A stretch of DNA of 64,000 nt. Origin: Coffea arabica. Its lineage: Eukaryota; Streptophyta; Magnoliopsida; Gentianales; Rubiaceae. Shown in pieces: positions 11,362 through 64,000 of the stretch (position 1 is the stretch's first letter; every line of letters starts with the position of its first letter). The notes beneath the pieces are model-generated. The model saw nothing but the letters and a program-made list of their open reading frames with translations, was not told the origin of the DNA and searched no databases. Location: contig NC_092317.1 of NCBI RefSeq assembly GCF_036785885.1, positions 4,838,501 through 4,902,500 on the forward strand, given 5' to 3'. Position numbers and translations under genes: made by a program.

Positions 11362-12880
11362 ATGGCGAGGCTTCTTCGAAATGCTTCTTCTCTCGGATGC
11401 CTCTATTTTTGCAACCTCTCTCTCCGGTAATTTCCCCACCAAACCAGATTTTGTTCTTATTTTCTTTGTATTTTTGGAGAACAATTTGGTTAGGATTAAT
11501 GATAGGTAATGGCCCGTTGTAGAAATTTGAAGCATTTTTTTAAAAAAATTTCAGCTTTTTCTCAAATATGTTTTTCACAGCTTTGTTAAGTTTCAACATT
11601 TTTACGCTACCTTGTCTTGTTTGTACTATTCTTTTGAAGTTATAGGTGTAATATAGTGTTTATACTTGTTATTAGCAGTTGGAAGCTGCGAATAAATGAT
11701 TATAATATTATTTCCTATCAATTACGAAAGCCAAATGCTTTACTTTGCTAGCTTGCAGAAGTTGTTCCTTGTTTTTAAAATTATTGAACTTGCATACTGT
11801 ATAAAGAAAAAGTCTTTTGTTTGATACGTTTTCTAACATCATTTTTCAGTTAGTACTGCTTTTCTTTTTTTATTTTGTTTCTCATTTTCTTCACGAGTCA
11901 TGACATGAATTTGTTGTTTGTTGATGCAGACTTTATAGGAAAGTCTTGTTAGGGGCATACACTCAACTCTCCTACTTTTCCTCCAAAAGGTACCCGAAGT
12001 TTATTTTCCTGCTGAACTGACTTGCATTTGGTCTTCATACCTTCTTAACTTGGTGATCACTTTGATGGGTTTCAAAAATAGATAAAGTAAAATAACTTTT
12101 GCATATAAAGTCTATCTTTTTAGGCTTTAGCCCCTTCCCAGTACCAATTAAAACTAATACATATATTTGCTTAGTGTTTGAATACTTCAAACATCTTGTT
12201 TATTTAATGTGGCAATTGCATGTTTTCCCCCATATTTTGGGGTTTTCTGTTCACTAAAAAATTATAAAGCACCAAAGTATGCAAGTGTATTACCATATTT
12301 TAGCCTTGTACCTCCCTCCTAGAGTATTTTAACATTAAATGCATCATTCTTAATGTAAAAATCACTTGACCCTTTTCCCCCATGTGATTCTTTGAATTAG
12401 ATGAGTTCTTTTAAGTATAGCTCTTTTGCTGAAATTTGTTGAGTTTGATATTTTTTACATTTGGCTGGGATTGTGTTATTCCTGCTTGAGAGTACCTACA
12501 TTTTGCTCTTTCTGCAATAGAAAAATATCAATTGTTTTTTTTGGCTTCATTGGTTCATTATGAATATAAGTCTTTTTTTGTATGGAAGGTAGAAGAAAAT
12601 CCAAGTCAAACGTCAAAGAAAGATTTGGTGCTCAAGTACTATCAGATCACTGCATCATTTGGAAAAGGTTCTATCATGTGGCTTGGCCGCTCTGCCCCTG
12701 TCAAACAAGTTCCAGTTGTGTCCACAGCTTCATTTGCTTTGGATATTGCATTTGGGATTGGAGGACTTCCAAGGTTCTATCATGTGGCTTGGCCGCTCTG
12801 CCCCTGTCAAACAAGTTCCAGTTGTGTCCACAGCTTCATTTGCTTTGGATATTGCATTTGGGATTGGAGGACTTCCAAAG
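11362..12880 (+). pseudogene. RECA3: Fragment of a mitochondrial RecA (RECA3-like) gene
   Basis: Three exon-like pieces with GT-AG borders read in order as the N-terminal part of plant RECA3: 11362-11426 (MARLLRNASSLGCLYFCN, a mitochondrial presequence), 11930-11989 (LYRKVLLGAYTQLSYFSS) and 12593-12880, with [20 protein letters not shown] and [18 protein letters not shown]. RecA family proteins carry out homologous-recombination surveillance of organelle DNA, and the FGKGSIM and GGLPKG regions precede the Walker A loop. The Walker A exon and everything after it are missing. The third exon has lost its frame between the basic KSKSN stretch and SKKDL, lacks about two residues relative to the family, and contains a 106-bp tandem duplication that shifts the frame again. 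It sits inside a transposable element and cannot make a RecA. I take it as a captured or carried gene fragment. Confidence 0.8.
12665..12876. repeat. Perfect 106-bp tandem duplication within a RECA3-like exon
   Basis: 12665-12770 and 12771-12876 are identical over all 106 bases. Both begin aaggttctatcatgtggc and end ggattggaggacttcc. Because 106 is not a multiple of three, the RecA reading frame is opened in a second frame across the copy, and this explains three overlapping frames in the same place. Complete identity implies a recent event or recent homogenisation. Confidence 0.97.
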
Positions 12881-13448
12881 GTTGGACATCTTATGTGTTT
12901 CTTATGCTGCAATGCCAGATGTTGATTTTGAATTATTGTTTCAAGTGCACTAAACATCTGCAAATTTCTAAAGAATCATATTGACATTGTTTTAGAGTGC
13001 AAATATACCGCTGAAAGGACTTCTCTCTATCTAATTGGGACTTCAACTAATAGTTGCTGTAATTATTCTTGATTTGAATATTTACATTCTGATTTATCAG
13101 TATTTGCAGTTTCCAAACTGTATAGCAAAAGAAAAGCTTTGTCTTGTTCTTGAAAACCTTCACTGAAATGGAAGCTTTTAAATTACTTTGTATCACTATT
13201 GGTTTCTGTTAACCTTATCATTTTGTATTACTATTGGATCTGTTTGATGTAATTGGAGTAGTGCATTTTGGCATCGGGCAATATTAGTAGTTCCATGTCC
13301 ATGGGAGATGTTACCATCCCCAAGCAATTCACTCAGGCTGGCTTATGGGATTGGCTCATAACTTCCATTTCTTGTTTTTAACATGAATACATGAAACTTC
13401 GTTATACCTCTATTTTCGTCTGATTTACATGAATATTTTTCCTTAGCA

Positions 13449-18627: not shown

Positions 18628-19288
18628 TAGAGCTGTAAACAAATCGAATCGAATCGAGTATCTCATGTTTGAGCTCTATTCGTTAAGCGATTCGAACAAC
18701 GTTCATGTTTGTTCGTTAATTTTCGAATTTCAAACCTGTATTCGTATTCGGCTCGTTAAACAAAGTTCGTGTTCGAGTTCGAATTCGTGTTCGACTCGTT
18801 TAACATAAACAAGCTGTTCGCGAACATGCTCGAAATGCTCGAATCCAAATTATTTTTAGTCTTTAATATACCATGCAAATCATTAATCATTCTCAAAAAC
18901 AATTAAAGCAACTAAGTGACTAAATTCTATTATTCATTAACTATATAACTAATAACATAAAAACAATAAATAAAACAAAGCAATTTGCTCTCCAAATATA
19001 AAAGTCCAGCCATAAAATTAACCCTAAAATTTGTCAAATGATAATTATGTCCATATTCGTGAGCGTTTGTTAAAACTCGCGAACATACTCGTGTTCGCGA
19101 ACGTTCGTTTAACATGTTCACGAACGTTCGTTAAAACTCGCAAACATGTTCATGTTCGCTCGATTATTAATCGAACAAAAAAATTTGTTCGAACTCGATT
19201 CGTTTAAGGTTTCGAGCGAGTCTTTCACGAATACGAACGAGTCGAAACGAATCGGGTTACCAAACAGCTCATTCGTTTAACAGCTCTA
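18628..19288. mobile_element. Non-autonomous hAT-type element, 661 bp
   Basis: Perfect 8-bp target duplications, ctctgaat, at 18620-18627 and 19289-19296, flank inverted ends: tagagctgtaaac on the left and, on the opposite strand, tagagctgttaaac. The body is rich in gttcg/cgaac words arranged as many small inverted repeats, as in hAT MITEs with subterminal motifs. No transposase is encoded. It ends only about 160 bp before the PPR start codon, so it lies in that gene's promoter or leader. Confidence 0.9.
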
Positions 19289-19445
19289 CTCTGAATATAC
19301 TGTTTAAAAATATTTGATCCTCCTATCTATTCCACATTTTTACTATTCCATTACCTCTTAGACTTTTGGTTGACTGCAATTTTTTCTGACTCCTGGCTAT
19401 CGGGGCTTTTGAGCCTCCAAATCAAGTCACCTATAAGGAGCCCTC

Positions 19446-21620: not shown

Positions 21621-22369
21621 AAATTTGAACTTGGAGGATGAATGATGTCCTTGTGGGTGTAAATAAGCGGAAAGGAACAAGTACTAACCAATGAGCAGAC
21701 GGTTTTGGAGATTCATACTGGAATCCAAGCTAAAATTTCGGGCATTTTGCTCAATGGGGAAATAAAGAAGGGATCCCAAAAATTAACATTGTCAATGGCC
21801 TTGATGGATTTAAAAGTTGTCCCTGGATTACTTGTTACTGTAGTAAACAGAACCTCAGAACTGTAACAGCCTCCCTAGCAGTTTTACAGGAGGATCATGC
21901 GTATACCCCTGGGAATAAGCTTTATTTGACAAGGAAGGCGTAAAATACATCTTCTGAAGCTGAGATTAGGCAGGGAAAAATAAGTGATCCTGGATCTCAA
22001 CTTTTTTGAATGGAGTACAATTCCTGCATAGAAGTTTCACTTATCAGAACAATGCAATCTTTGGTCAGAAGCAAAGAAGCAAAAAGTAAAATGGTTGCCG
22101 GCCATGAAGTCGGGAAATTGATAATGAAACGGCAGTAGTACGTCATCAGAGTTCATGCACGCTGTAAAAGGGTGCAAGAGCCGTCCTACCAAGTACCAAC
22201 TGCTTATCAACTTTTCTGAAGTAAATTTTCTTTAAAAATTGTCCGACTTTGGAATATACTTTTCAGTATCAGAATATCAACAATTGACTATTATACGAGG
22301 AATATTATGTGAATACCAATCAAAGGGGGATGCATTATACAAATCAAGGTGGATATTCATTTCGTATTA
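21621..22369. other. 3' flank of the PPR gene
   Basis: No further gene is visible. The first few hundred bases are probably 3' untranslated sequence; the rest is unique-looking AT-rich DNA up to the Stowaway-like element. Confidence 0.5.
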
Positions 22370-22698
22370 CTCCTTCCATCCCACTTTGATAGTCTTGTAT
22401 CTCTTTTTCATCTGTCCCAAATTATAGTCCACTTTCCAATTGAAGAATGTAGTTGTATTTTAATTTTTCTAAAATATCCTTATTCAATGTAAGTAGTTGT
22501 TACTATAAACCTACCTCATTTAATGAGAGATGATTCTTTTTTTACCATCAATTCAAGTTCTCATAAAGTTATACCATATTTAATGTGAGGGTATTTTAGG
22601 AAAATAGCAGTCTAAATTTACTTTTCTAACAAAGTTAACTACTTTTTCTTAAACTGTGTGAAAAAAGAAACAGGACTATCAAAGTGGGACGGAGGGAG
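22370..22698. mobile_element. Stowaway-like MITE, 329 bp
   Basis: The ends are inverted: ctccttccatcccactttga on the left and, on the opposite strand, ctccctccgtcccactttga, with TA on both sides (22368-22369, 22699-22700) as for Tc1/mariner-type MITEs. A second member in the opposite orientation lies at 49464-50651, where a hAT MITE interrupts it. Internal similarity between the two runs along their whole length. Confidence 0.9.
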
Positions 22699-22700
22699 TA

Positions 22701-23439: not shown

Positions 23440-23944
23440 GGCTTCAAATCCTCTGTCCCCAAAATAGTCTCTGTCCCCTCTGTCCCTTATTTGTACAGCT
23501 GCCACGTGTTCCTAATCTTTTGTTAATTCAAACTCAAATAAATCGATAATAATCGGTTTACAAGTTTTGTTAATCCAAACTCAAACAAATCGATAACTCA
23601 AAATATTTTTTTATTTTCTTTTTAACGAAAAAGAGTCTTGTTGATCATAATTTTTAACAAACAAGTTTAGCTCTTTCTAATTTTTTTACATCTCGTAATT
23701 ATGTAAATGTGATGATTTAAAATTAGTTACTCAATAGTTTTGAGTTATCTGTAAAATCAGCCTTTGAGTAAACCTGTCAATCGACTATTATCGATTTGTT
23801 TGAGTTTGGGTTAACAAAACTTATAAACCGATTATTATCGATTTATTTGAGTTTCGATTAACAAAAGGTTAGGAACACGTGGCAGCTGTACAAATAAGGG
23901 ACAGAGGGGACAGAGACTATTTCGGGGACAGAGGATTTGAAGAC
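23440..23944. mobile_element. Fold-back Mutator-like MITE, 505 bp
   Basis: The two arms, about 23443-23605 and 23780-23941, are nearly perfect inverted copies of some 165 bp (starting cttcaaatcctctgtcccc on either strand) around a short AT-rich loop. The element is flanked by a perfect 9-bp duplication, ctctggtat, at 23431-23439 and 23945-23953. Long arms plus a 9-bp duplication fit a MULE-type fold-back element. The arms contain the G-box-like word gccacgtgt, once in each arm. Confidence 0.88.
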
Positions 23945-44959: not shown

Positions 44960-45147
44960 TTTTTTTTTTTTCATTACAGTGGGTATCTAGAGCCAAGGAC
45001 TGGTTACCGTACGCCCCAACTAATCCCACTGCGTGACCGCGAGAGGCTGCCCAACATCATCGGTCAATGTTAACGACTGGGATTCGATCCTTGGTTGGTG
45101 GCTCTCACCCAACTGGGCTACAACCACCGAACCGAACCCAGACTGGG
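44960..45147 (-). mobile_element. tRNA-derived SINE (family 3), minus strand
   Basis: A 188-bp element flanked by the perfect 19-bp duplication cccttttttgtgattattt at 44941-44959 and 45148-45166. On the minus strand it has a clear A box (gtagcccagttgg), a clear B box (ggatcgaatcccag) and a poly-A tail, so it is a tRNA-derived SINE with intact internal promoter-like boxes. Confidence 0.93.
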
Positions 45148-45363
45148 CCCTTTTTTGTGATTATTTAGATATTGTTAGTTTATTACTTCTACTGTTTACT
45201 TGATTCAATTCATCCATTACTGGCAAATTACAGGGCCCGCAGCGTATTGATCATATTAGGACGCCAGTTGTATCATTCTGCCTGAAACTGATGAATCCTG
45301 ACGGACAAAAATTAAAACTGAATATCTTACTGCTTTTACAGCTTTCATCGAGTAGTTTTTAAG

Positions 45364-45580
45364 AACGCCCCGCGTGAATGGTCCAGCGGTAGCGCCTCTC
45401 ACCGGTGACCCTTGAGGTCCCAACTTTGAGTCTCCGCTCTGCTGGATTCTTCCGCGCACTTATCGTGTTCGGGTCGGGTTAGGGCGCCGGATCCGGGCCC
45501 CAAGGAATTAGTCGGGTCGGATTGGGGCCCCGTAAAGATTGACCCGGACAACCCTGTGTCGAAAAAAAAAAAAAAAAAAA
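45364..45580 (+). mobile_element. tRNA-derived SINE (family 1), plus strand
   Basis: A 217-bp element flanked by the perfect 14-bp duplication gagtagtttttaag at 45350-45363 and 45581-45594. It has an A-box-like ggtccagcggtagcg head and ends gacccggacaaccctgtg with a long poly-A tract, matching the copy at 9252-9430. It lies about 170 bp upstream of the FKBP17 start codon, so it is in that gene's promoter. Confidence 0.92.
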
Positions 45581-45753
45581 GAGTAGTTTTTAAGCCTTCA
45601 ATAGGGGCGGCCAGAGGCAGAGGGTACTACCACAACAATCTTCACATCAAGATAAGGTAGGGACCAATCTTCCCTCCTTTTGCTGCCGCAAGTACAAATA
45701 TCCTTCCGCTAGCTCCTATGTTTGACTTTTAAAATTTTTTGTTGTGTGAGGAA

Positions 45754-47260
45754 ATGGCAACCTTCTTTGGATCCCCACCATTTCCGTCTCACCCAATTTC
45801 AAGAACTAACCGCCTGTGTTCATCTCCACAAGCCCCACCTCCTCAGCAACCAACCCAACCTTCGCAACCCCAACCTACACCTTCTCAAAAGCTGAGTGCA
45901 ACTTCTGCAGAGCCACCATCAGCAGCCACAGTGAAAGTGCAAGAGGAAAAGGCTAGTAAGCCTGCCATTCCTGCAAAAGTAGAATCAACTGATTGGATTG
46001 CATCCACCTTAACCAGGAGATTTGGCCTTGGTGCTGGGCTTGCATGGGTTGGTTTCCTGGCTGTTGGAGTCATTTCTGAACAAATCAAGACTCGTTTAGA
46101 AGTTTCTCAAGAAGCAGCTGACACAAGGTAAACTGTTATCTGGAAAGAATTATATCATTCCGTGAATTGTTCTCTAAATGGGGATGAAAAACTTGAGATG
46201 CAATGCAGATAAAGAATTCACCAATGCAGTACTACAAGAAGTTAGTTTCTTGGTAAAATGAAAAAGCAAAGCTATGTCAAGAAAGAACGAGGATCCTTGT
46301 CAATTATCAAGTAGTAGCGTGTGGCAAGGAGAGAGATAAAACTGGATTGCAATTGGCACTGATTTGGCCAAAGTGCACTTTGAGCATTCATTTTTATGGG
46401 ACGATTAGTTTCTAACCAATGTTTAAAAGGCAGGGATGTTGGGAGAGACATTTTATGTCCCCTTACCAGGCGAAAGCCTCTAGAAAGGTAAGGAAGATAA
46501 AATAGTAAAATTATAGTTTAAAATAAAAAAAAAGACAATAATATAAAAACACCCCATACATCCAACCCCTAGGCATTCACCTCGTAGTGTGGGGCATGGG
46601 ACAAATGCCCAACAATACTTGCGTCCCTGATCAAATGTCTCGGGGCATTGCCTCGCCTAGGAGCTCGCCCTAAACACGCCTTACAATGGTTCTAACCTTT
46701 CTTGGTTTCGTTCTCAATCCAAAAGTATTTGCCAATGTTTGTAACCCTTTTTGTTCTCACAGGGATGTTGAGAAGGAAGAGGAGGTAATTCTGCCTAATG
46801 GCATAAGGTACATTATTATGCTGAGTGCTGACATTGAAGCAATACTAGCAACTTCTTAAGTTTACTCCAGATGCCTTTCTTCTGAATACAGTTGTCTTAC
46901 TTCAGGTACTATGATTTGAGAGTTGGCGGCGGTGCATCACCAAGACCTGGAGACCTAGTTGTGCTTGATGTTGAAGCAAAGCTACAAGACAGTGATGAAG
47001 TGTTGATTGATACCTTTGGTGGTGATAAGAAGCCTCTAGCACTTGTCATGGGATCAAGGCCTTATAGTAAAGGAATCTGTGATGGGGTGGAAAATGTTTT
47101 GAGGACCATGAAGGCAGGTGGCAAGAGGAGAGTAATCATACCTCCTAATCTGTGTTTTGGAGAGGAAGGAGCAGATCTAGGTTCAGGAGTGCAAATTCCT
47201 CCATCTGCTACCCTTGAGTATATCATTGAGATTGACAAAGTATCAATTGCACCAGCTTGA
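45754..47260 (+). CDS. FKBP17-2: FKBP17-type FKBP-like protein, chloroplast, 257 aa
   Basis: Three exons (45754-46127, 46763-46807, 46906-47260) give 257 residues. The start ATG at 45754 opens a Ser/Pro/Gln-rich plastid transit peptide (about 1-60). It is followed by STDWIASTLTRRFGLGAGLA, which includes a hydrophobic segment (about 91-109), then EKEEEVILPNGIRYYDLRVG and an FKBP fold (about 145-255) ending TLEYIIEIDKVSIAPA. The LPNGIRYYD, GDLVVLDVEA, RTMKAGGKRRVIIPP and IPPSATLEYIIEID blocks are those of the plastid FKBP17 group. FKBP domains are named for peptidyl-prolyl isomerase and FK506 binding, but many plastid members lack part of the active-site set, and I would not assume activity. 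The hydrophobic segment suggests thylakoid association. The closest Arabidopsis match I recall is FKBP17-2 (At1g18170). A SINE ends about 170 bp upstream. Confidence 0.93.
46128..46762. other. FKBP17 intron 1 with repeat-like sequence
   Basis: About 46430-46690 looks like a degraded repeat: it contains ccttaccaggcgaaagc, gcctcgcctaggagctcgcc and a central A-rich stretch. These GC-rich cgcctagg/aggcga words on both sides suggest an old DNA transposon copy, but I cannot fix ends or a target duplication. Confidence 0.35.
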
Positions 47261-47424
47261 TTTTTCACTCCACTTCTTTCCAATGCAATCATAAGCAATC
47301 ATGAGCAACATACATTATTTTCTCTAAGTAGGCGAATAAATTATGAGCAGCAGCTACTAAAACATACATTTTCTCTAAGTTGGCAAATATTTGGATAGAC
47401 GGTCTATGGTCCCATTTTCTCTAA

Positions 47425-48975
47425 GTTTCGGGTTTGTCCTGGCACCATGGCAATCGCATTTGTCTGTAAATTGTAATTGTTGCAAGTAAGGTTTACAATT
47501 TTGTTGTCTTGTGCTCCTTGCTTCAGAATTTTATATTTTGTAGATTGGTTGGTGTAAATTAACTAGGCGGCAATCAATGATACTGCTACTCTGAATGTTT
47601 GACTCTCTTCAATTTTCAGTAGCTCTTAATTATGACACACAAGACTTGCAATTGCTGCAAGTTTGTGGAGCTTGAGATCATTAGAGAAGATCAGCCATGG
47701 CCCAGGTGATCTGTTTTGTAGATTGCTACACTCGAGTCATGTTGGGTGGAAAACTTGAGCAATGCTATAGAAACTCCTACTTTCCTTTAGAATCTTGTGC
47801 ATGTCATCAAGTCCTCGACGGTGTACTCTCTAGTTTGATAAATTGGCCTTGACTGCAAAGCTAAGAACGATATACTATGGGCTTGTTTGGAAGTGAAGTT
47901 TTTGGTCTAGTTTTTTAGCTACTAGTTTTTTAACAACTTTTGCTACAGAAATCCTAAAAAACTTATCAAAGTTTTTTACCTACACACTTCAAAATAATAT
48001 ACAAAAAACTTTCCCTTCAACTTTTCTTCTTCTTTTTCCTCCCTCACCCAACCGGCCACCACCTCCACCACCACTTCCGGAGCCGGTAACTATTCCGGCC
48101 AACTTTTGCTGGCCTTCCTCTTTTTTTTTTCTTCTCTCCCTCCCCTCCCCTTTTGACCGATATGTTGGTTCCAAAATCTCTTTTTTCTTTTTTTTTTCTT
48201 TCTCCCTCCCCCCTCCCCTCTTTCCCCGCCACCTTCCCCCTTTGTTCGCCGCCATCTCCTCCCCTCATCACCAGCGCACGCCGCCACCTCGCCGCACGTC
48301 TCTCTCCTCTCGCGCGTTTCTTGGTCTCCGCGGCCGGACACCGCTGCCCATGGCTGCGCGACTCCAGCGACACCACAACCCTTCTCTCTCCCTCGCAACG
48401 CCGACGAAGCCACCACCACCTCGCGCGACTCCAACCCAACCGCCGCCTCTCGCTCGCGCCACGCCCCCTGGCTCCACCGTGCGCTGCCGTTCCTCCTTGG
48501 CCACGACCCAAAGCCCTCGCGCGTTCTCTCTCATCTTCACAACTCCCACCTCGCTGCCGTTCCTCTCAGCTCCCTCCACTACAGCGCAGGGGGGTGGGGG
48601 AGGGGGGTTGTGGGTAGAGGGAGAGGGACGGGGAGCTTTTGCAGGGGTGGCGAGGCAGAGGGGGTAACGGGGAAAGGGAGGAGAGGGGTGGCGGAGGTAA
48701 CGGGGAAGGGGAAGGGGGAAGGAAGAAGAAGAAGAAAGAAAAGAAAAAGGAAACAAAGAAAAAGAAAGAGAAAGAGAAAGAGAAAAGGAAAGAAAAAAAG
48801 AAATAGAAAAAAAATTTCACCTTACAAAAACTTCTACAAAATTTTTCTACTTACAAAAACTTCTACAAAATTTTTTCAAAAACTTCTACAGTGAACTACA
48901 GTAAAGTTTTAGACAAACTTCCAAAAAACTCAGGTTCCAAACAGGCCCGAATGTTCCCCAAGATAATTGAGCTAA
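47425..48975 (+). repeat. Left copy of a ~450-bp inverted duplication (interrupted)
   Basis: 47425-47878 and 48949-48975 together match, in inverted orientation, 57870-58315. The copy begins about 165 bases after the FKBP17 stop codon. The block 47636-47725 (90 bases, starting cacacaagacttgcaattgc) is identical to 58011-58100. The rest is about nine-tenths similar by eye. A 1.07-kb transposon-like insertion (47879-48948) splits this copy near its far end. A small hairpin (cttgca-attgc-tgcaag) lies in the core. Confidence 0.93.
47879..48948. mobile_element. 1.07-kb TIR element with GC/CT-rich core
   Basis: The left end gggcttgtttggaagtga and the right end, on the opposite strand, gggcctgtttggaacctg are inverted. 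The right copy of the surrounding duplication lacks this sequence (its atatattatgaaagttcc is the empty site), which shows it is an insertion. The target duplication is not clear. The centre (48010-48810) is C/T-rich and then G/A-rich, giving many long but low-complexity frames on both strands. Near the right end (48822-48890) the phrase acaaaaacttctacaaaatt is repeated. Confidence 0.8.
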
Positions 48976-49258
48976 AATTCACTTGGAAAAAAAAAGCTAA
49001 AATTCACTTAACCTATCATGTATGTGTGTATATATACTAACAATTATTACCTTCCCTTACCTTTATATATTTTCTTTATTTAATCTTATTTACCTTCCCT
49101 TGTATTTATTTAATGTTTCTAATTAATCTTATATTTTTCAAAAATATAACACATGAAATTTATCCTTGCATTTATATACTTTCTCTATTTAATCTTACCT
49201 ACCCTCTCTTTTATTTATTTATTTTTTCTAATTAATCTTACATTTAAAAAAAGAGTAA
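48976..49258. other. AT-rich tandem-like repeats
   Basis: About 49030-49160 and 49165-49250 share attttctttatttaatctta and ctaattaatctta words, giving an imperfect two-unit repeat. Related sequence lies at about 8985-9060. No gene is seen. Confidence 0.45.
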
Positions 49259-49399
49259 ATCTTTCCTATACTGACAGTGTATACACTATCATCGTTAGAT
49301 TCACGACATGTGTGTAAAAATTGAATTTCAAATTCAAATTTTGTACAGTTGTCATTTATCCAATGTTGATAGTGTATATACTGTCAGTGTAGGAAAGAT
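49259..49399. mobile_element. 141-bp MITE with 32-bp inverted ends, TAA target site
   Basis: The left end atctttcctatactgaca and the right end, on the opposite strand, atctttcctacactgaca extend as an inverted repeat of about 32 bases with a few mismatches. The triplets TAA at 49256-49258 and 49400-49402 fit a Harbinger-type target duplication. A decayed relative is at about 6598-6743. Confidence 0.8.
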
Positions 49400-49463
49400 T
49401 AATTCTTAAAAAAAATATAACATTTAAAATATATTTCAACGAGTGCCTATACACACATTCGTA

Positions 49464-50651
49464 CTCCCTCCGTCCCACTTTGATAGTTCTGTTTCTTTTT
49501 TCACACAGTTTAAAAAAAATAGTTAATTTTGTTGGAAAAGTAAATTTAGATTGCTATTTTCCTAAAATACCCTCACATTAAATAGAGTACAACTTTATGG
49601 GAACTTGAATTGATGGTAAAAAAAGAATCAACTCTTATTAAATGGGGTAGGTTTATAGTAGAGGTGGCAAATCAACCCACTTAATTAAATTTACCCATAC
49701 CCGCCCATGAATAGATGGGTATGGGTATCTTAAATTTTTGTATATGGGTATAAATGGGTCACCCAATAATACCCATTTATTAAATGGGTATTATTGGGTA
49801 ACCCATCAAACCCAATTAACCCATTTAGAATTCTCTTCCCCCCTCCCCCCCCCCCCCCCCAAGTCTCTTCTTTTCCCCACCCATTTTTTTTTTTCAAATT
49901 TTTCATTTTGTCATGATGTTAACTACTTTTGTTTCATTATTATTATTATTATTTGTTGGTTTTATCTTATTATTTTATTTTCTCTTAGTTTGTTAACTTG
50001 CTCATTTTTCAGCATTACTAATTTATGATAAATTTTAGCCTATTTTCTTATCTTTCTAAAATGAAATTTTAAATTTATATATGAAAAAAATGTTAGAGGT
50101 TCAAAATTTTTGGATTAAGTTTTTATATTAATTTTTATAGTACTCAGTTCAAATTTTTATATTCTTATTATTCAATTATTAAATAATAGGTAATTTTGTA
50201 ACATAGAGTATAAATGAAAAAAAATTGGTAATTAAGTTTATTGAACATTATAAATAAATATTTAAAACTAATGATGGGTACAAAGAGTGGTATAAATTGA
50301 TAACTTAGTTTGCAAAAATAAATTTAAATGAGTTTACAAAAAGTTAAAATAAATGGGTTGTAAATGGGTAATTGGATTACCCAATTCATTTTTTGACTTA
50401 CTCATTTATACCCATCTAATTAAATGGGTATAAATGAGTTGACTCACTTATACCCATTACCCATTTTATCCAACCCAAACCCGCCCAAGTCACCCATTTT
50501 GACACCTCTAGTTTATAGTAACAACAACTTACATTGAATAAGGGCATTTTAGGAATATTAAAATACAACTACATTTTTCAATTGGAAAGTGGACTACAAT
50601 TTGGGACAGACGACAAAGGAAAACAGGACTATTAAAGTGGGACGGAAGGAG
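49464..50651. mobile_element. Stowaway-like MITE interrupted by a hAT MITE
   Basis: This is the same family as 22370-22698 in opposite orientation: the left end is ctccctccgtcccactttga and the right end, on the opposite strand, is ctccttccgtcccactttaa, with TA on both sides (49462-49463, 50652-50653). Its own sequence runs 49464-49658 and continues at 50519. The interval between is the hAT MITE plus one copy of its target duplication. Confidence 0.93.
49659..50510. mobile_element. hAT-type MITE nested in the Stowaway-like MITE, 852 bp
   Basis: The perfect 8-bp duplication gtttatag (49651-49658 and 50511-50518) flanks inverted ends: tagaggtggcaaatcaaccc on the left and, on the opposite strand, tagaggtgtcaaaatgggtg. 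The body has many aaatgggta/tacccattt words near both ends, typical of this hAT MITE group. It contains a C run (about 49842-49860) and no transposase. Confidence 0.93.
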
Positions 50652-51076
50652 TATGAAAATAATGCCGTTTTCCTTTATCATAGCTACCAATTTAGCAGCG
50701 GTGAAATCGAGATCCGTGATGGCCAAAAACTCTTTTGCCAAACGGGACCTTAGATTACGCTTGATAATCCTGTTTTTGTCCATCCTAATTAAAAAGAGTT
50801 CTCGATTAGAGAAATTCTACCCACTTGTAAACAGCTACAAAAGGAACAAGCTGACCAAATGCAAGGTCGGTATTGAAACAGCAGGCCACGGACGACTTAC
50901 ATTCAAATTGATGAACTTACTCGAATTAACAAACAGAAAAACGATAAGGAGCCAATTGGATTGCATTCGCAGCAGCCTGTGCATTGTCCAAGGCTTCCAA
51001 AAAGCTGGTCTTTTGTTGCTTGCGGGAGAGCGGGCAAGTTTGCAACTGCTAGAAGGAACACAATCTTCGTATCATC
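50652..51076. other. Upstream region of the DUF1295 gene
   Basis: This has a long open frame on the plus strand, but it runs out of frame with and partly over the first exon of the DUF1295 gene and resembles no protein I know. I treat it as promoter and leader. Confidence 0.5.
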
Positions 51077-54000
51077 ATGGGAACCGTTATCGACTCCCAT
51101 TTCTTGGCCTTCACTGCCATTGTTACCGTAGGCAAAAACCCTTTTGTTTTTTCCTTTCCTTTTACAGGTAGAACACAGTCACATAGTGGTGATGCATGTC
51201 TTAATGATTTTTGCAGGTGGGTTATCAGTTGTTCTTCTTCATAATCACATCCCTTTTGAGATTTGATAAGGTTACTGACTTTGCTGGTAAGATTCTATCC
51301 ATTGCTATTCTCATCTTCCTTTTTTTTTTCCTTTCCTTTTTTGGGTGTTTTGTTATCTTTCGAATTCTGAAGTTTTTAGTGCACTTGATGCGTTCCTGGT
51401 TTTAGAAGTTATGTGTAAAGCTTAGAATCAACATTTTTTCCTTAGGTGATGATGGATATGGTATTTTTCAAAATTTAATCTTGAAATGGTAGTCGATTGC
51501 ACTGAAGGGTTGTTTTATTATGCGGCTATGCTATCTGAAGTAAAACCTTGTACAATCTTGTTTTACTGAAAATATAGTGGCTTATGGTGTAAGACGTAGA
51601 AAGACATGACCTTTGCAATCTGATAGATACTTGTTATTGTCGTGTCCACAAAGCTAAATTTGGCTGTTTTGATTTCATTTTATGTAATTCTTAACAAGTT
51701 ATAATTTTTACCCTTACTTTGCAGGAAGCTCAAATTTTGTTATACTTGCTGTATTGACTTTGGTTTTAAAGGGTTCATGGCATTTTCGTCAGGTAATACT
51801 GCTATTCTGTGGAATTTCCCTTTGTTGACAACTGTTCGTGAATGTGGTCTTTTTAACTACTGCAGAGCAGAAACTTATTTCCTTTATATTCTCCTCAATT
51901 TTTGTGAGGGGAATAATGCTTCTTTCTGTCTTAATTGAACAGAAAGTGAATGGCTGAATGCTTCCTTTCCTTAATTCAACACATTCTATTTTTGAATGTG
52001 TTGCAATCTACAAAGTAGCATTGATTTGTTCCTTTGCTGCCGTTTGTTTCTGTAATTTGATGATTTGTGTATTACCTAATGCCTGATCACAAAATGTGTA
52101 TTTGTGAGTTGTATGGGAGGTGTTTCAGCTTCCCTGATCTGATATATTTGATATATATGCTTGGCAAAATATGATAGTTACTGTAGGTTCTACTTGTTCC
52201 TGTATTGACGTTTGATTATACCTGTCAGGTGATTTTGTCTCTGCTTGCAGTCTTATGGGGCCTTCGGCTGGCCCTGTTTCTACTAATGAGGTAAGATTGG
52301 GATAAATGTCTTTGCAATCTTCAGAAGATTTTTGGCACTGAATCCATATTGTAATCCTCTTGGTTTTAAAGATGGTCAATAAGCAATTCCTCATTTTTAT
52401 TACAATTTGTCTTGTTTCATTCAGTTCAATGTACAACTTGAAACTAGCAATCTGCTGCAGTTGATCATTACTCTTCAACCTGATTCCACTTAGCCTCACA
52501 GTTCCTGTTTAGCCTGTCACTGTAGTGAGATCATCTTACCTCAAACCTCAAACCTCAAACCTGTTGGCATTTATGTTTCTTGTTTCTTCAGTGATCTTTT
52601 CATGATTTTATGTTGTTTGGGAACAAATAGATACTATGATTCTATGCCACTTTCCATTAAATTTCTACCTGTTCCTTTTTATAGCCCTTTCTTCTCATTG
52701 GTTGTGCCTCTGTTAAATCATAACAGCTAATTGTGTTGGTAATAATCAACTGAGGATGCTTAAAACTCTGGGCAATAGTACTAATTATGAATTGTTCTGT
52801 ATGCCCTAGGACATCATACATTCCCAAAATGCCAGAATAGTTTATCTTTGCATATTTCAATTACATCTTGATTTAAGTAATTGTGTTTAAGACTTCTCCC
52901 AGTATGTGTGCGGTTCTGTTTTGCAGTTGAAGCTCTAGAATTTACAGATATCATAATGCCTTTAACTTTGGAGTGCTGATGCGTCCTTTAGATGTCTTCA
53001 TGCTCAATTTTTCCTCAATTATTTGTTTTTTTTTTATGCCTTTTGTTGTTAAAAGTGTTCTGTATTATATACTTTCATGTCTCTGTATTCCGGATCTGAT
53101 TTTTAATTTTATATCTCCTAATTTACACCTTTGTTTTGATTTTAACTTTCAATTTTTTTTTCCGACCCTAGTTGGTGAAAGGCCTTTGAGTAAATGCAAA
53201 TTGATTTAGGAATCAAGCCCTTCCTTTAGCAATACCACTTTTAGTTTACACTTTAAGAATTGAGGATAATTGCATTAAAACCAGCCTAACTCGTGCTCTT
53301 TCTTTTTTTCTTCCCTTTATGAATCAGGATATTGCAATGGGGGGAGGACAGGCGCTTTGATGAAATGCGTAATAATTTGGGCAAGTTGGCAGTTTTTTGG
53401 ACATTTCAGGTTTTGTAGCCCCTTTGAATGTTTCTGAAGCCAATTTATCTGTGTATTTGAAAATTGTGCTAATGATGGAGTATGCTGTCCTATTTCTGGA
53501 TTATATGTTTTTGCTGATCTCAGGCTGTTTGGGTGTGGACTGTGAGTTTACCAGTGACAATTGTGAATGCAAGTGACAGAGATCCATCCCTTGAAGCTAG
53601 AGACGTCATTGGGTGGATTATGTGGTCTGTAGGGATTTTAATTGAAGCAACAGCTGACCAACAAAAGTTGACATACAAAAACAACCCAGAAAACAGGGGG
53701 AGATGGTGTAATGTTGGAGTGTGGAAATACTCTCGTCATCCAAATTACTTTGGTGAGGTTAGCTCCCCCAACATTTGTCGTTCTTCCTCATCTGCAAAGT
53801 ACTTATCTACGAATTCCTCACTAGTCAGAGTAGTTTAGTTTCATAACATTACAAGCAAACAAAAGAACCAGTAGCTGAGTGCTCTCAATGCCCGTAAAGG
53901 ATAGAGCTGCAGAATCACTTGTTTGCATCAGCAGTGGAGAGTATTCACAATCTGGTTAATGCTTTTGTCTCATGGTAAATGCATTTTTGACAAAGCAGTT

Positions 54001-54977
54001 TATAGCTGTCAAATAGGCTGTTATGAATAGAATATATTTGCAGTTTAAGGTTCCATGCATGGATGTATCACCACTAGTGATTCTTTATGGATGTTTCAAC
54101 TTGAAATGAATAGGTGAAATGCAATGCTTTTGTAGTTCTTTCTAGTGGGTGGCTATGCATCTCACATTTAGTACTCTTTGAGCTGAGTGATTAAGCTTGC
54201 TTGCATTGGTTTACATTTACACACGAAGCACAAATCCACCTCTGGTTTTCTTGTTTAAAGCTTATTAACTCAAACCAGCTAGCCTTTCTCTCCAAAACCA
54301 CCCTATTTTAACACTCATTTTGTTCCTAAAAAAGTTTAAACACCACTGTAGAAAGAGAACTCTACTTAAGAACTTAGAGAACAATAATACTAATTATATC
54401 CGGATCCTAACCCTGTCTCTATGATTCTATTTATGTGATGCATTTTATGAACTCAAGGTGTTTTTTTTTTCTCATTTGGGCCTTGTCCTCGTGTTTTATT
54501 TAGATCCTATTATGGTGGGGAATTTTTGTAGCTTCTACACCTGTTTTAAAAGGTGCTGAGTGGCTTGTCATCTTTGGACCAATATTCCTTACACTGCTGC
54601 TTCTTTTTCTCAGCGGCATACCATTACTTGAGGTTTGTTTTTACTTTTTTTGACTGAGATGTTCAGACTGTTTTCCTCTGTGTAAGCACTCACATACATG
54701 CTTTCCTTACCAGGACTCTGCAGATAAGAAATTTGGTGGTGTGGCTGCATATAGGCACTATAAGAAAACGACAAGGTTCGTCCACTGTTTCATTGCACTC
54801 ATTTCTTTGACTCCTTTTGCAATAGAAAATAACTGTTAAGAAAGTGTCAATTTCAGCCCTCTCATTCCGCTTCCCCCTGCATTATATGGGAATTTGCCTA
54901 TATGGATCAAAGCAACGTTTCTCTTTGAGTTTCCTTTCTATAGTCGCAGTCTTCCAAAAGAAGAGCTGAGCTGGTAA
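51077..54977 (+). CDS. DUF1295 / steroid 5-alpha-reductase-like membrane protein, 292 aa
   Basis: Nine exons (51077-51127, 51217-51286, 51725-51792, 52229-52290, 53328-53409, 53524-53757, 54504-54632, 54714-54775, 54857-54977) join in frame to 292 residues. Most of the chain is hydrophobic, with about six to seven membrane segments (for example VGYQLFFFIITSLL, NFVILAVLTLVL, VASTPVLKGAEWLVIFGP). The RWCNVGVWKYSRHPNYFGE block (ending at residue 189) is the signature of the DUF1295 / 3-oxo-5-alpha-steroid 4-dehydrogenase family; its Arg/His/Asn/Tyr residues contribute to cofactor binding in this fold. It is therefore likely an NAD(P)H-dependent reductase of a lipid or steroid-like substrate in an internal membrane, but the plant substrate is not known to me. 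It ends LPKEELSW. The closest Arabidopsis genes by memory are At1g18180 and At1g73650. It sits between the two arms of the inverted duplication. Confidence 0.9.
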
Positions 54978-55737
54978 ATCTATATTCCTTCTCTGAAGAT
55001 GCTTATCTTGAATGTTGGTGTACCTCATGCCTTATTATTGCCTGTTCTATGTGCATTCCCTTCTCGTAGTCCGTGTCACGTGCTTTCTCTATTATTTGTT
55101 TTTCATGTAGTTCATTTGTCTACTTCATGATCCGCATTTTCCCTAAAATCTTGGCAATATTGAAGTGAGCCCTATTATGCAATTATTGCATAGTTTTCTC
55201 TAGAACACAATCACTGAGATCCAGAATATCGTAATGATTCTGTTGCATATGTATAGAAATGCTGCCAATCTTTTGAATCAGGTGATAGCACAAACATCTG
55301 TCATTGGCAGTATACCTTTAGAGAAGGTAGTAGTATATCAAAGAAAGATAAAAAGAATGATCTTCTCTAGGCTTGGTTAACTCTTTGCTGTTCCGGACAC
55401 ATATACCTTGTTTTTTTGGACAATTTCGACTTAAGGAGGTATCTTTCTGTTGGATTATGCTCGGTGATCATACATAACATATTCTGTTTGTGCAAGGCGT
55501 AGAACAAGCAATCGAGGGGGAAATGCTGAGGGGAAGATGGATTGATCTCGCGTTGACTTGTTTTTTAACTTTTCTCGGTTGATCCACCGGCATACACACA
55601 AACGTGCTTCCAATCCAGCATCGTCTCTGTTCCAGGATAAACGTGCTTCGTTTTAACTTTTCTACTCTCCTCCTCCATATTTACAGGATAAACTTGTATC
55701 CAGTGTAAATATCATTGAACTAGAACTCTTTAGTTGT
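54978..55737. other. 3' flank of the DUF1295 gene
   Basis: This is probably 3' untranslated and intergenic DNA. I see no gene. The right end joins directly to the decayed copy of the kinase gene tail. Confidence 0.5.
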
Positions 55738-57665
55738 TTTTACATGTTGGCAAAATCAAATTTACACCTGGTGAGTATTCTGCAATTCTTGACGGCTGAC
55801 CCCTCTCCTGAACTCTGCTTACCGGAGGAACACTTGGTCTGGGTACCTGTGAACCAGTAACAGGCTTTTGTAGAGGTTTTAGAGCAGCCATACTCTCAGC
55901 AAACGAAGGCCTCAATTTTGGGTTACTACAAGGTCATATATATACATATTATGTAAATCGTGGTAAATTCCATTTTTATGTATTAAGTAAATAGCTGAAA
56001 ACTAAATTTTTAACTAGAATGAATGCACGAATTTTCGGGACAAAGTCCGCATCTTCCATTTCCAGACATGGCAATGAGAAGAAGACTCTTTAAAAGCTGA
56101 AGGAAAACCATAAAAACACCCATTTGGAAAAATTTCAAGTGAAGTGATGGTTCAAACACTTGGTGGAAAAGAAACAAAATCATAACCTCTTCAGCTTGTA
56201 TAACAGGAAGAAAGTAGAGACAAAGCCATTAGGAGTGATCAAAGTACAAAGGAAATAGGTACTCACGTTTGCCGGCATCTGTGAATGGTGGATCAATGTC
56301 ATCTGGTATGTCAGAGACGAGGGTGCTGAAACCCAACAGCTCCAACAACTTGATTGGATTCATCCTCCATCCCAAGAGGAGGGCAGACTACACACAGCAA
56401 AGCCCAGCAAATAACACCATATGCATCTGTATCTTATTGGCTTCCGATGCCTAATCTACAGAGTTCATCCATAAATTGTTCCACAGGGGACACACACAAC
56501 GAGCTAGCAAACTGCAGAAGCAGAGCTACTCCGCCATAGTCTGCCCCTTATTTCAGCTTGTTCAGAAACAGTCGACAGTGACACCATGTAATTAAACTAC
56601 TTCACTCTCAAAACTGTGATGCTAATAGCATAATGCAGCAGAAATGACAATTCCCTGGCAAACCAATCCACAAACATCAAACATGGAAAATTTGGGAATT
56701 TATTTAAGGACATATAGTATTCGACGCTATGGAGCCTCAATAATTGATACCAACATATAATTTGAACAGATGATATGGAAGCCAAACTTCTGAATTTCAT
56801 CAAAGTAAACTATTGAGCAGTACTGCACGGTATAATCATTACAGGCTCTTTTCAAGTTTAGGTTTCATCGGTTGTTTAAGTATCTTGAACATGCATGCGC
56901 ATATGCAAGTCTTGGTCACCTTATTTCTCTCCACACATTTGAGCATGTTTTAATGGGTTTTTCAAATGATAAACTAGGAAATCAGCAACTAGATGTAGAA
57001 GCAGACAGAGAAGCAACCAGAAAGAGAAGTTGGTTCTATTCAAAGTACAGTTTGAAGGTGCAAGCACTGGATAGATTATAATACGTCGAAATTTCCATTG
57101 TATTTTGAACCATGGATCACAGCAACCACCTTTTGAGAGAGAAACGTGGCAAGCAAAACATCTCCGAGGCTAAGAGTATCAGGGCCAACAGCATTGAGTT
57201 GTCTTCTAGAAAAGAGCTGATGATAAAATGATGTAAAAAGAATTAGCCAGTTTGTGCAAATGGAGAGAGCACTATAATCTTCCATCACGAAGGACATCCA
57301 AAAAATACAAAGCCAAGCAAGGAGAGAGGGAGAAACAAAAACTGTGAACAAACTCAAAAAGCAAAAGGACTTTTACACAAGGCAGAAATATTAGCAACAT
57401 TACAATTCTCTATAGGTGAGAAACGATAAAGAGAGAGTCATGCACAGACAAAGGTCCAACAATTAAACCATAAAGGCTACACCAAATCAATTAAACTAAA
57501 CAATTTTAATGCTGTGCTTCTTTACTCCAGCTTACCGTCCCAGCAATTCACCTGGAAGAAAGGAATGTGCTGTGCTTCATTCATTCTTGACAATCTGAAA
57601 TCACATACCTAGAAGAGGAAAGAAATACACATGAAATAGGAATTGTTTCGTGATATTTATTTTGC
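55738..57665 (-). pseudogene. Decayed duplicate of the 3' part of the Raf-like kinase gene
   Basis: This stretch matches 58438-60984 along its length, in the same orientation. It retains the last exon (about 55744-55915: RPSFAESMAALKPLQKPV and [18 protein letters not shown]), the 3' half of the penultimate exon (about 56262-56345, with small deletions) and the VCDF...SRM exon (about 57530-57605, which has a 4-base insertion). A deletion of a few hundred bases between about 56353 and 56356 has removed the [10 protein letters not shown] exon and half of the next. The last exon lacks 18 bases that hold the stop codon in the intact gene, apparently lost between two cacctgg repeats, so its frame runs on for some codons. 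It has no promoter or ATP-binding part and cannot give a kinase. Confidence 0.93.
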
Positions 57666-57869
57666 GGATGTGCCTGTGTAGAAATATTTATTTAATCATT
57701 CCTAAATAATTCCATTGACCAAAAGGCAACCTTTTTGCTTTTATTTTATCCCTATGGATACTTTATTTAGTTATGTTTCAATACTAAATTCTTTCACGAA
57801 ATCCTGAGACGTGGATCAATAAACTGTGAATTCACTTTTTTACTGTTAACAAGTCATGTAGTAGATTGT

Positions 57870-58315
57870 CAATTATCTCGGGGAACTTTCATAATATATC
57901 GTTCTTCGCTTTGCAGTCAAGGCCACTGTTGAGGACTTGACGACACATACAAGATTATGAAGGAAAGTAGGAGTTTATAGCATTGCTCAAGTTTTCCACC
58001 CAACATGTAACAATCTACAAAACAGATCACCTGGGCCATGGCTGATCTTCTCTAATGATCTCAAGCTCCACAAACTTGCAGCAATTGCAAGTCTTGTGTG
58101 GCATAATCAACTGCTACTAAAAATTGAAGAGAGTCAAACATTCGAAGTAGCAGTATCATTGATTGCCGCGTAGTTAATTTACACCAACCAATCTACATAA
58201 TATATAATTCTACAGCAAGGAGCACAAGAGACCAAAATTGTAAACCTTCATTACAATGATTACAATTTACGGACAAATACAACAATTTGCCATGGTGCCA
58301 GGACAAACCCAAAAC
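57870..58315 (-). repeat. Right copy of the ~450-bp inverted duplication (uninterrupted)
   Basis: This matches 47425-47878 plus 48949-48975 in inverted orientation, with the identical 90-base core at 58011-58100. It starts about 150 bases beyond the stop codon of the kinase gene, on the downstream side, just as the left copy starts about 165 bases beyond the FKBP17 stop. It shows the pre-insertion state of the site occupied by the 1.07-kb element. Confidence 0.93.
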
Positions 58316-58466
58316 TAGTAGAAAAAGGGCAGGAAATAATCACAATTTCTCTCAAATATGAAATGTTTGCCTGTCAGATTACAAGATGGTATTTTATCTT
58401 GGTTGATTCCGGACTTGCATGCATAGTGAGGCTTTACAAGTTTGGCAAAATCCAATTTACACCTGG

Positions 58467-61400
58467 TTAGCTCTTTTCACCTGGTGAGTATTCCGGAATT
58501 CCTGACGGCTGACCCTTCTCCTGAACTCTGCTTACCGGAGGAACACTTGGTCTGGGTACTTGTGAACCAGTGACAGGCTTTAGTAGAGGTTTTAGAGCAG
58601 CCATAATCTCAGCAAACGAAGGCCTCAATTTTGGGTCACTACAAGGTCATATACATACATATCATGTAAATCGCGGTGAATTCCATTTCTCCTTTTTATG
58701 AATTTAATAGCTAACAACTAAACTTTTAACTGCAATGGATGCATGAAATTTTAGGACAAAATCTGCATCTTCCATTTCCAGGTATGGCAATGAGAAGAAG
58801 ACTTGTTAAAAGCACAAAGAAAACCATAAAAACACCCATTTGCAAAAAAAATCATGTCAGCCGATGGTTCTAACACTTGGTGGAAAAGAAACAAAATCAT
58901 AACCTCTTATATAACAAGAAAAAAGTAGAGAAAAGGCCATAGGAGCGACCAAATGTAAAATGAAAAATGGTACTCACGTTTGCCAGCATCTGTGAATGAT
59001 GGCTGCAATAGCTGGATCAATATCCTCTGGTATGTCGAGACGACGGTGCTGAAACCCAACCGCACCAACAACTTGCATTGGATTCATTCCTCCCCATGGT
59101 TGCTGCATAGTACAAAGCTCCCACAGTATAACACCAAAGCTATATACATCACACCTGCAGTGCAACAATTTATCATCAACATTATAAATGAACAGCGCAA
59201 AAGGAGAAAGAAGAGCCTACATACTCAAATAGCAGAAATATCAGCAAATATGAAGTCAATCATTTAACTTATGATGTATATTTATATCTTTTGTGTGCCA
59301 TCTCATTTTGACAGTTTCCTTCAATTCTGGTTGCTATATAATGCGACTAGAAGTGGAAGGCATACTTTTCATCTGATGGCTCATTTCTTAGCACTTCTGG
59401 AGCCATCCACTCTGCCTGAGAAGGGTGACAATCAAGAATCAGAATCTCTGTTACACAATTTTGTCAAGTCATATTTGAACAATTGCATTTTGTACAGATC
59501 AATAAGCAATCCACAATAGCATTGTATACAGATAAAATATCCATCCCAAGAGAGGGCAGACTTCACACAGCAAAGCTCAGTAAATAACACCAAATGCAAT
59601 GTCGTCTTATTGGCTCTGGATACCTAAGCTATAGAGTTAATCCATAAATTATTCCCCAGGACATGAGTAAGCAAACTGCAAAAGCAGAGCCACTCCACCA
59701 TATTCTGCAACTTATTACAGCTTGTTCAGAAACAGTCAATACCATGTAATCAACCTACTTTGCTCTTAATAGCACAATCCAGCAGAAAAGACAATTCCCT
59801 GGCAAACCAATCCACAAACACCGAACATGGAAATTTTGACATCTGATGACAACCAACCTTTGAGTCCACAAGGGTTCAAATGAAAGTGACTGTTAAAAAA
59901 AAAAGGAAACAAACGAACAAACATGAAGAGGACATATTTATTTCACACAATGGAGCCTCGATAAATCATCCCAACATATGATTTGAATAGATGAGATGGA
60001 AGTCAAACATCTGAATTTCATCAATGTAACCTAAGCAATAATGCACAGTTGTGAGTCCTACATAAATGATTACGGGCTCTTTTCAAGTTAGGTTTCATCA
60101 GCTTTCAAGTATCTTGAAACTGCATGCGCACATGCAAGTTTTCGTCACCTTATTTCTCTTTACACATTTAAACATGTTTTTAACCAGCTTTTCAAATGAG
60201 AAACTAGGAAATTAGCAATTAGATCTAGAACCAGAAAAAGAAGCAGTTCGAAAGAGAAGTTGATTCTATTCAAAGTACAGTTTGAAGGTACAAGCACTGG
60301 ATTACTACCGACATAAGCCCAACAATCGTTTTCCTAATACATGTTGAGTACATCAAAATTTCCATTATATTTTGAACCATGGATCACAGTAACCACCTTT
60401 TTGAGAGAGAAACGTGGCAAGCAAAACATCTCCAAGGCTGAGAGTATTAGGGCCAACAGCATTGAGCTATCTTCTAGAAAAGGGCTGATGATAAAATGAT
60501 GTAAAAAGAATTAGCCAGTTTGTGTGAATGGAGAACTATAATCTTCCATCATGAAAGACATCCAGAAAATACAGAGCCAAGCTAGGGAAGAGGGAGAAAC
60601 GAAAACTGTGAACAAACTCAAAAGGAAAACATGCAGCAACGTTGTCACAGATAAACTTTTACGTAAAATAGAAACATTAGCAACATTACTATTCTCGCTT
60701 GCTGGAATGTACTCAGGATAAAGGATAAAGAAAGAGTCATGCACAAAGAAATGTCCAACAACTAAACAATAAAGGCAACACCAAAAATGGTAATCAGTTA
60801 GACTAAACAATTTTTCATGCTATATTTATTTTTCCCAAAGTAAATAAAAGCCAATACACCGGCTTACCGTCCCAGCAGTTGACCTTGAAGAAAGAAATGT
60901 GCTATGCTTCATTCTTGATAGCCCAAAATCACATACCTAGTAGAAGAAATTCACATGAGAATTGGTTCATGATGTTTATTTTGTCCATATGCATATGGCA
61001 ATGTGTGCAAATCTCAAGCATATAATAGATAATAAAATCATCAAGGTTGCTCAGGTATTAGAAATGTCACCTTTTTTACACATGCATGCAGGCAAAAAGA
61101 AACAAAAAATCACCTTTACAACCCAATTCTTATCAACAAGAAGATTTGGAGATTTCAAATCACGATGAACTATTACTGGAGTGCAGTTGTGAAGGTAATT
61201 CATCCCCCTAGCCTGCCAATTCAAAAGACCAAAACAAGAGTTTAATAGGCAAAGCTACCATGTAAACAACATGGTAAAAACCAAATGAGTAGCGAAAGTA
61301 AGAAAACCAGAACATACAGCATCAAGAGCCATCCTTAATCTTCTTCGCTCATCTAACTGATTGTTGGGGCGATGTAATAACCTATACAAACTACCTCTGC

Positions 61401-64000
61401 GTGCAACAAAAAAGCCTCTCATTTCCAAGCTAACATCACAGAGTTTTCTGAGGTAAATTCATTGTGTTCAAAAACATGGGAATCTGTAAATAATATTTTA
61501 CTACAGTAATCATGGTTTTTGACTACGCAATAGCAAATCTGAGACTTCCAAAAGCATAATGCTTTAAGTGATCAGGACTAGCAAGGAGAAGAATTTTGAT
61601 TACTATGTCCTATATATAAACAGGCAGTTAGTACTTTCAGCATAGTAGCCAGAAACTCAAAAAGTGATGAAATTAAAACAGCCTAACAGAACTATAAGTC
61701 AAAAAGTAATAATGATGGCAGTAATTAGGAGGTGAAGGGGCCTAGAATGGTAGGTTACTGTCAACAGAACATCCTGGCTTTGCGTCCATATGCATATGTT
61801 AGGATATGTTCAGGAAAGCAAGATGCAGGATGTGAAACAATGGTATTACTGTATTACCATACTAGGATATAGAACAGAATTCCACAATAGTATTTTCAAC
61901 TCAACTTAGATGCATTAAAATTAAGCTACTAGCATAAGTCAAGGAGATAAGCTGGTAATATTATACCTAAACACTTTGAGAGTAAAATAAAATTTGGCAT
62001 ACCTAGGAAGAAATTCCGTAACAATTGAAAGATTTGGGGGACGCGTAACAGCTCCCATAAAAAGAACAACATTAGGATGCCTTAGTCTTTTCATGATCCA
62101 AACCTTGAAAAGCAAACAAGAGATAGAATTGGCATCAGATCATATTCAAGATACCTAGGAAACACCGCAAGGTAAATGATACAGAATGAGCGGAATTTGA
62201 TAAAGCAATCAAGCCTCAAATGCTAAGTGATCATTGAAAAACACCAGTCATTTCTTAAAAAGATTAAAAACATTCACTCAAAGGTTTTCATGGTGAAGAA
62301 AAAACATAACCATCACTGTGTTGCCCAGAAAACTAGCACCAGAAACAAACATGTGATCATGCTAAATAGTAAAGGAGACCAAATCTTACTTATGACCAAA
62401 TTTTTCTTATGAATGAGGAAGTATAACTAATATATATCAATATAAACCACATCTCCATATAGCATGGTAGCCAGATGCAAAAGCTACAAAGGCATGTAAA
62501 TTAGATTTTTGACGAACAAATTAGTTACTACTAAAACAAAATGGCAACTATAAGAAGGAAATAAAGAAAGCTCAATAACACGTGAATGCACTTCTTCAAT
62601 AGCCCCAAGAAAATGCTTGATTACTCTTGAAAAGTAATTGCACAATCAGCCAAAATACTTTGAACCAGGGCTTCATACCCATAGCAAAGATTTTGATACT
62701 CAACAAGCAGAACATGAAAAATAATTTGATAGGTCTGTGGTGATATTATTTGCACTGTCCAGCTTATGGGGTACCATTGACATGAAGACCAATGATGATC
62801 AGCATACTGTCCTCTTTTACCATGACTAAATGACAGAAACATGTAATCTTTCCCTAGTAACTGAGCAATTTTGCCTGTCACATGCGAATCTACAACTTCG
62901 AAAAATAAATGACCAAACTTTAAAAAACAATTACATATCATCTACAGTTATGCATACTCTAAGCACTTAATGTCTGGGGTCAGTTATGTAACGGAAATAC
63001 TAGCTACACGCTCTTCTATGATAATCCTCTCTCTGGATTAGGAGAACATCCTTCTACCCATTAGTAGGATGTTTCTGCCTGTTGCTCACAGGCCAAGATA
63101 TCTATGACAAGCCACAGATGCTAGAAAGCAACCTAACCCTTTAAGGCTTTGCAAATAATCCAATTTGCAAGAAGAAATGTCCCATGAAAATACAGCAAAT
63201 TTACCTCACTTTTAAATTCTTCAAGGGATTCACCAGCTACATCTTGGTCAAGGAATCTCTTAACAGCAACTTCCTGTTAAATAGAAGCAAGCCTCATGTA
63301 TCCACAAGAACAGAAGGCAATAAAAATAACAAATACAGCAAAGAAGGACTTCCAAGCATTTAAAATAATAACAGGATGAAAAGGAGTAATGGTACACTCA
63401 AACCAATACAAGACTAAACCTAAACAGCAGTAGCAATAGTACTAATATAATTTGATTTTATGCCAAAGACTTGCAGAGATGAGTAACTGCTTGAAAAGAT
63501 TGGCAAGAAAGGATGAAATCGCAAACACAATGTCCGATAATCCATGCCTATTAGCCAATCTTAATTAATTTCAGTGATGATTATTTTAAGCAATTCAAAA
63601 GAAAGCAAGATGCTTGCACAAGCTGATGTAAAGAGAATCTTTAGATCTTTCATTGACATGTAAGACCAAGGTCGTTGATCTAAATCTTGAAAAGATCTTG
63701 CCCAATATTTCCACAATTGGTGCGGAATCTGGATAAAGACAATGACAAAAGAACATTATTCCAAGGAAAACATGCTTAGACTTGAACTCATTGAGTTATG
63801 TGAACGAACTCACTTTCATAGATTGGCAGGGCTTTTCTCCAAGAAGCAACCTAAACCACTAAGAGACTCTTACAGAAAGGAATAATACACTTTCTAGAGC
63901 CTTTTTATGAGCATTTATACATTTAATGTCATCAATATCCCAACAAGTACTTAACACAACAATAAACTTAGGCTTGTACAGGTGAACCACTTACTACTAG
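58467..64000 (-). CDS. Raf-like MAPKKK (EDR1/SIS8 type), C-terminal kinase part; 5' end outside window
   Basis: Eight in-frame exons on the minus strand (63205-63273, 62003-62103, 61318-61396, 61114-61212, 60868-60936, 59366-59415, 58978-59154, 58467-58638) give the last 271 residues. They contain [14 protein letters not shown] (the ATP-binding lysine), [58 protein letters not shown] (catalytic loop, HRDLKSPN), [10 protein letters not shown] (DFG), [30 protein letters not shown] and [20 protein letters not shown], with all catalytic residues intact. The GTAEW wording and the C-terminal tail after MAALKPL match the plant B3 Raf-like group (EDR1, SIS8 and relatives), serine/threonine kinases in stress, sugar and hormone signalling. 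The exon with the glycine-rich loop and the long regulatory N-terminus are not in the window. A duplicate of the 3' end lies downstream. Adjoining genes match Arabidopsis At1g18160 context by memory. Confidence 0.93.

Follow-up and report, generated by a model that had tools for sequence, protein, structure and literature searches.

What event left two copies of one ~450-bp sequence facing each other about 10 kb apart around a DUF1295 gene of Coffea arabica, and how did 90 consecutive bases within the two copies come to be identical? These questions were addressed in a stretch of 64,000 nucleotides (hereafter the window; C8:4838501-4902500) and by searches of the genome (1,197,963,845 bases, or 1.198 Gb, in 131 contigs), from which all copy counts by DNA search are lower bounds.

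The inverted repeat and its counterpart on C7

BLAST comparison of the window with itself paired 47411-47879 with 58329-57890 at 84% identity (E 4e-151). The first of these segments (arm A, plus strand) lies 3' of an FKBP17-like gene and upstream of the DUF1295 gene, and the second (arm B, 57890-58329, minus strand) lies 3' of a Raf-like kinase gene, with homology between arm B and the C7 copy of arm A extending to 57869. A repeat finder also recovered the inverted arms ~10 kb apart. In a four-copy alignment, the two C8 arms were mismatched at 38 of 436 ungapped sites and separated by 5 gap events. Within them, all 90 letters of the core (47636-47725 on the plus strand of arm A; 58011-58100, minus strand, in arm B) were identical after reverse complementation, so that mismatches amounted to 0/90 in the core versus 38/346 (11%) outside it. 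Both the ~450-bp inverted repeat and its identical core, as given in a preliminary description of this DNA, are therefore real.

The FKBP17-like gene (45733-47260, plus strand) was placed by its reading frames and by a last exon (46892-47257) matching FKBP_C in Pfam; the "17" in its name is an assumption taken over from the preliminary description. An AATAAA motif at 47335-47340, between this gene and arm A, suggests that FKBP17 transcripts would end before the arm. The DUF1295 gene (51077-54650, plus strand; end approximate) contains exons within 53533-53835 and 54504-54650 according to Pfam and its frames, and has a probable start codon at 51077, as judged from its N-terminus. Of the Raf-like kinase gene, the 3' part is present (58467-63991, minus strand, stop codon at 58467-58469), with two exon frames matching PK_Tyr_Ser-Thr in Pfam and the gene extending to or beyond the end of the window.

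When a 476-base arm sequence was searched against the genome, five rows were returned: four copies, of which two lie in the window and two at the corresponding locus of C7, and one piece of a copy that an insertion has interrupted. Arm A of C7 matched at 98% over positions 83-455 of the query. Its outer end, which matched query positions 1-89 as a separate fragment, is severed from the remainder by ~9.75 kb of inserted DNA that carries a 597-bp direct repeat at either end (99.3% identity). This sequence (C7:5091917-5101664) has the appearance of a recent LTR-type insertion inside C7 arm A, with a 5-base target duplication (TCTTG) identified by eye. Gene order and orientation across the interval are identical on C7 and C8, and comparison of the two loci revealed no inversion difference between them. 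The FKBP17 locus was also checked for a more ancient duplicate by searching with its last exon, which had one match each on C7 and C8 and none elsewhere at E ≤0.001. We infer that C7 and C8 represent two subgenomes, although they could alternatively be two haplotypes.

A duplicated kinase segment and the origin of the arms

The window contains a second duplication, absent from the preliminary description, in which kinase sequence (58392-61058) recurs at 55761-57678 and as a fuller copy on C7. The C8 copy (minus strand), delimited by BLAST, C7 comparison and reading frames, is a truncated version of the kinase 3' half without the part equivalent to 59094-59539. As the matching-exon frames appear disturbed when inspected by eye, it is read here as a putative pseudogene. 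Across three gene regions, C7 and C8 diverge by 1.1%, 1.2% and 1.8%, and the pseudogene reaches 3.5%; this last value, measured on 56366-57678, is about three times that of the neighboring kinase region (1.1%). The spacing between pseudogene and arm B also differs, being ~15.3 kb on C7 (C7:5110186-5125520) versus about a dozen bases on C8 (57679-57690), and part of the C7 spacer matches window positions 18628-19289 at 90%.

In kinase coordinates, the homology edge of arm A (58329) and that of the C7 pseudogene (58392) are only 63 bp apart; arm A and the pseudogene thus cover neighboring parts of one segment and are therefore probably one copy that was split. The edge of the C8 pseudogene (58474) lies 145 bp from that of arm A, a wider gap that arises because C8 is without ~320 bp present in C7. 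Copy numbers agree with this arrangement, as C8 and C7 each gave two main copies for a 1,055-base kinase 3' query, the same number as for the arm sequence, along with two matches of 76 bases on C3 and C4. To compare ages, Jukes-Cantor distances were scaled by C7-C8 divergence, giving 6.7 units for the arm sequence (95% interval 3.6-15.3, resting on small counts, 5 and 7 within-arm differences) and 7.0 units for the kinase part (5.5-9.3, with the rate taken over 57815-63991, arm B included). These rate-corrected ages, with their wide and overlapping intervals, are consistent with a single event for both parts.

Following this reasoning, the arms are probably remnants of an ancient local duplication of one end of the kinase gene, later split by an inversion. 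A segment of ~3.2 kb (equivalent to 57869-61058, minus strand), comprising the kinase 3' half and ~600 bp past its stop codon, would have been duplicated locally, and the extra kinase copy would then have decayed to a pseudogene. A later inversion may have separated the kinase part of this copy from its flank; the reversed stretch would have comprised arm A, which is the flank piece, and the DUF1295 gene, so that the flank would now face its sister as an inverted repeat. Both duplication and inversion would predate the separation of the homologous C7 and C8 loci, and the 90-bp stretch would be a slow or once-converted patch in an otherwise decaying duplicate rather than a demonstrated element. 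Three observations count against this history: raw divergence differs between the arm sequence (38/436, 8.7%) and the kinase/pseudogene pair (308/2080, 14.8%), with ages agreeing only after rate correction; the C8 pseudogene does not end as close to the edge of arm A as its C7 counterpart; and the 90-base run in C8 is unlikely under strictly uniform decay. If the ancestral order was DUF1295-FKBP-kinase, as in Arabidopsis, an alternative path would begin with a duplication including FKBP17, after which one FKBP17 would have been lost and the FKBP17-DUF1295 block inverted.

Element insertions are abundant in the neighborhood of the arms. One of them (47880-48948; ends GGGCTTGTTTGGA / TCCAAACAGGCCC) trims arm A in C8 and is absent from C7 at this site. 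A second insertion (49464-50651), which is TA-flanked, has CTCCCTCCGTCCCA-type inverted ends and is presumably Stowaway/mariner-like, is likewise absent from C7 at its site. This 1.19-kb insertion has a possible shortened (MITE-like) relative at 22368-22700, a short element with matches to both its ends. Further repeats in the window include an imperfect palindrome at 49234-49424 (95-nt arms, 77%), probably an element, which gave a below-threshold match to a microRNA family (43.7 bits against a gathering threshold of 245); a 155-bp inverted repeat (23442-23596 and 23788-23942) whose 96% identical arms are ~190 bp apart; and a tandem duplicate of ~113 bp (99% identical) at 12665-12883.

Despite this abundance, it is extremely unlikely that the arms themselves arose from two insertions of a transposable element or other ordinary dispersed repeat. 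This reading was rejected on copy number, as the search, a lower bound, found four copies in 1.198 Gb, all at two homologous loci, whereas for the neighboring element at 47880-48948 the scoring of 40 among 2199 candidates in the genome yielded 78 matching rows. The same four places were returned when the core alone was used as query and accounted for all 8 rows when two arm frames were used in a translated search, and a 34-base core pattern allowing ≤3 mismatches had 4 matches in the genome and 0 for its reversed control. The many genome-wide copies that the preliminary description had named as the mark of a dispersed repeat were thus not encountered. No prokaryote or viral contig contained an exact 25-mer of the core, an outcome of little weight, and arm A matched no plasmid; both are as expected for plant DNA.

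The identical core: conversion, chance or constraint

How unusual the core is depends on the locus considered. When the 43 breaks of the C8 pair (mismatches and gap events) were placed randomly, a run of ≥90 had P = 0.0013, and with the 42 breaks of a pairwise alignment P = 0.0021, although the region was picked after inspection and its true significance is weaker than these values. For the C7 arm pair, the longest identical run was 47 (P 0.16), because of one substitution inside the core of C7 arm A, and six partly overlapping kinase/pseudogene run comparisons gave P 0.09-0.28. The core is therefore mildly unusual in C8 and not in C7, and the contrast between an identical core and diverged flanks, from which the preliminary description had argued, is seen in the C8 pair (P 0.001-0.002) but is mostly lost in that of C7.

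The core is explained no less well by conversion or rate variation than by past constraint. A short gene-conversion tract between the facing arms, formed before or around the separation of C7 and C8, is a credible source of the identity, if somewhat short of probable, and may be compatible with the duplication history favored above. It would account for the sharp edges of the 90-base run, free of mismatches between flanks at 11%, and for its low run-length P in C8; the arms are inverted and ~10 kb apart, and the one later core change is in arm A of C7. However, the tract would be short at 90 bp, the C7 pair alone shows no signal, and variation in rate could yield the same run. This last option, that a decaying duplicate with ordinarily variable mutation rates kept the run by chance, has a substantial though less than even prospect of being correct. 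Among eight run tests, the one on the C8 arm pair had been chosen beforehand for its run, and the other seven, which partly overlap and include the C7 arm pair, all gave P 0.09-0.28; the P of 0.001-0.002 for the C8 pair is what speaks against chance.

Purifying selection on a functional element in both arms (e.g., a small RNA precursor, 3' regulatory element, micro-ORF or small exon) appears unlikely, even though the absence of mismatches in the core against 38/346 outside it is what selection would be expected to leave. Since the C7-C8 split, 1 of 180 site comparisons changed in the core and 11 of 711 in the rest, so recent divergence is not significantly reduced in the core, in a comparison of little power (Fisher P 0.48). 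Of the two causes put forward in the preliminary description, conversion fits and selection is not supported. A putative 25-codon frame with its stop (MTHKTCNCCKFVELEIIREDQPWPR; 47632-47709, plus strand) is common to both arms, with P as second residue in both B copies, and is open in three of the four copies; in C7 arm A, the single core change (AGA to TGA) ends it early. Pfam contained no family matching the six arm frames given, including the core frame of the preliminary description, and a PDB search with the 25-aa frame returned one match at E 4.2. A small exon, as suggested earlier, is not borne out.

Searches for a structured RNA gave a similar outcome. None of the four Rfam matches within 47411-47900 reached its gathering threshold (E 1.9-7.6), and at E up to 1 over 45000-61500, which covers arm B, Rfam returned none in the arms; the 11 weak matches in that interval were all at 49.2-49.9 kb, in palindromic element-like sequence. 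Folding of the core gave z -1.5 on the plus strand and -2.5 on the minus strand (3 of 200 shuffles fold as well), and a 221-base plus-strand stretch gave z -0.8, making the minus-strand fold the sole result that leans to structure. With no credible Rfam match and such plus-strand values, the proposal of a non-coding RNA or hairpin did not find support, and the AATAAA motif preceding arm A, downstream of FKBP17, also argues against function. More specifically, it is very improbable that the FKBP17/DUF1295 and Raf-kinase loci share, in the core, a regulatory element or micro-ORF that is undescribed, restricted to this lineage and kept identical through selection, possibly with help from conversion between the arms. 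If the core were truly constrained, it would be an element common to two adjacent, unrelated gene loci.

Comparison with known systems

Overall, the origin of this low-copy inverted repeat is ordinary genome history, and a striking inverted repeat can be explained by ordinary duplication and rearrangement. A single long identical run within a duplicate is weak evidence for function, because the copy at the second locus removes most of the contrast. Among known systems, plant conserved noncoding sequences, microRNA precursors and conserved peptide uORFs share with the core a short conserved patch and a small open frame, but differ in that the core has no family match and its frame is stopped in one copy. 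Interlocus gene-conversion tracts between inverted paralogous segments resemble it in the short, sharp-edged identical run within diverged copies, although the tract here would be very short and its signal is seen at one of two loci. Local segmental duplication followed by inversion shares with this locus its low copy number, adjacent pieces of one segment and a decayed gene copy common to both homologous loci, with the difference that here the inversion is deduced from the present arrangement and the ancestral order is not observed.
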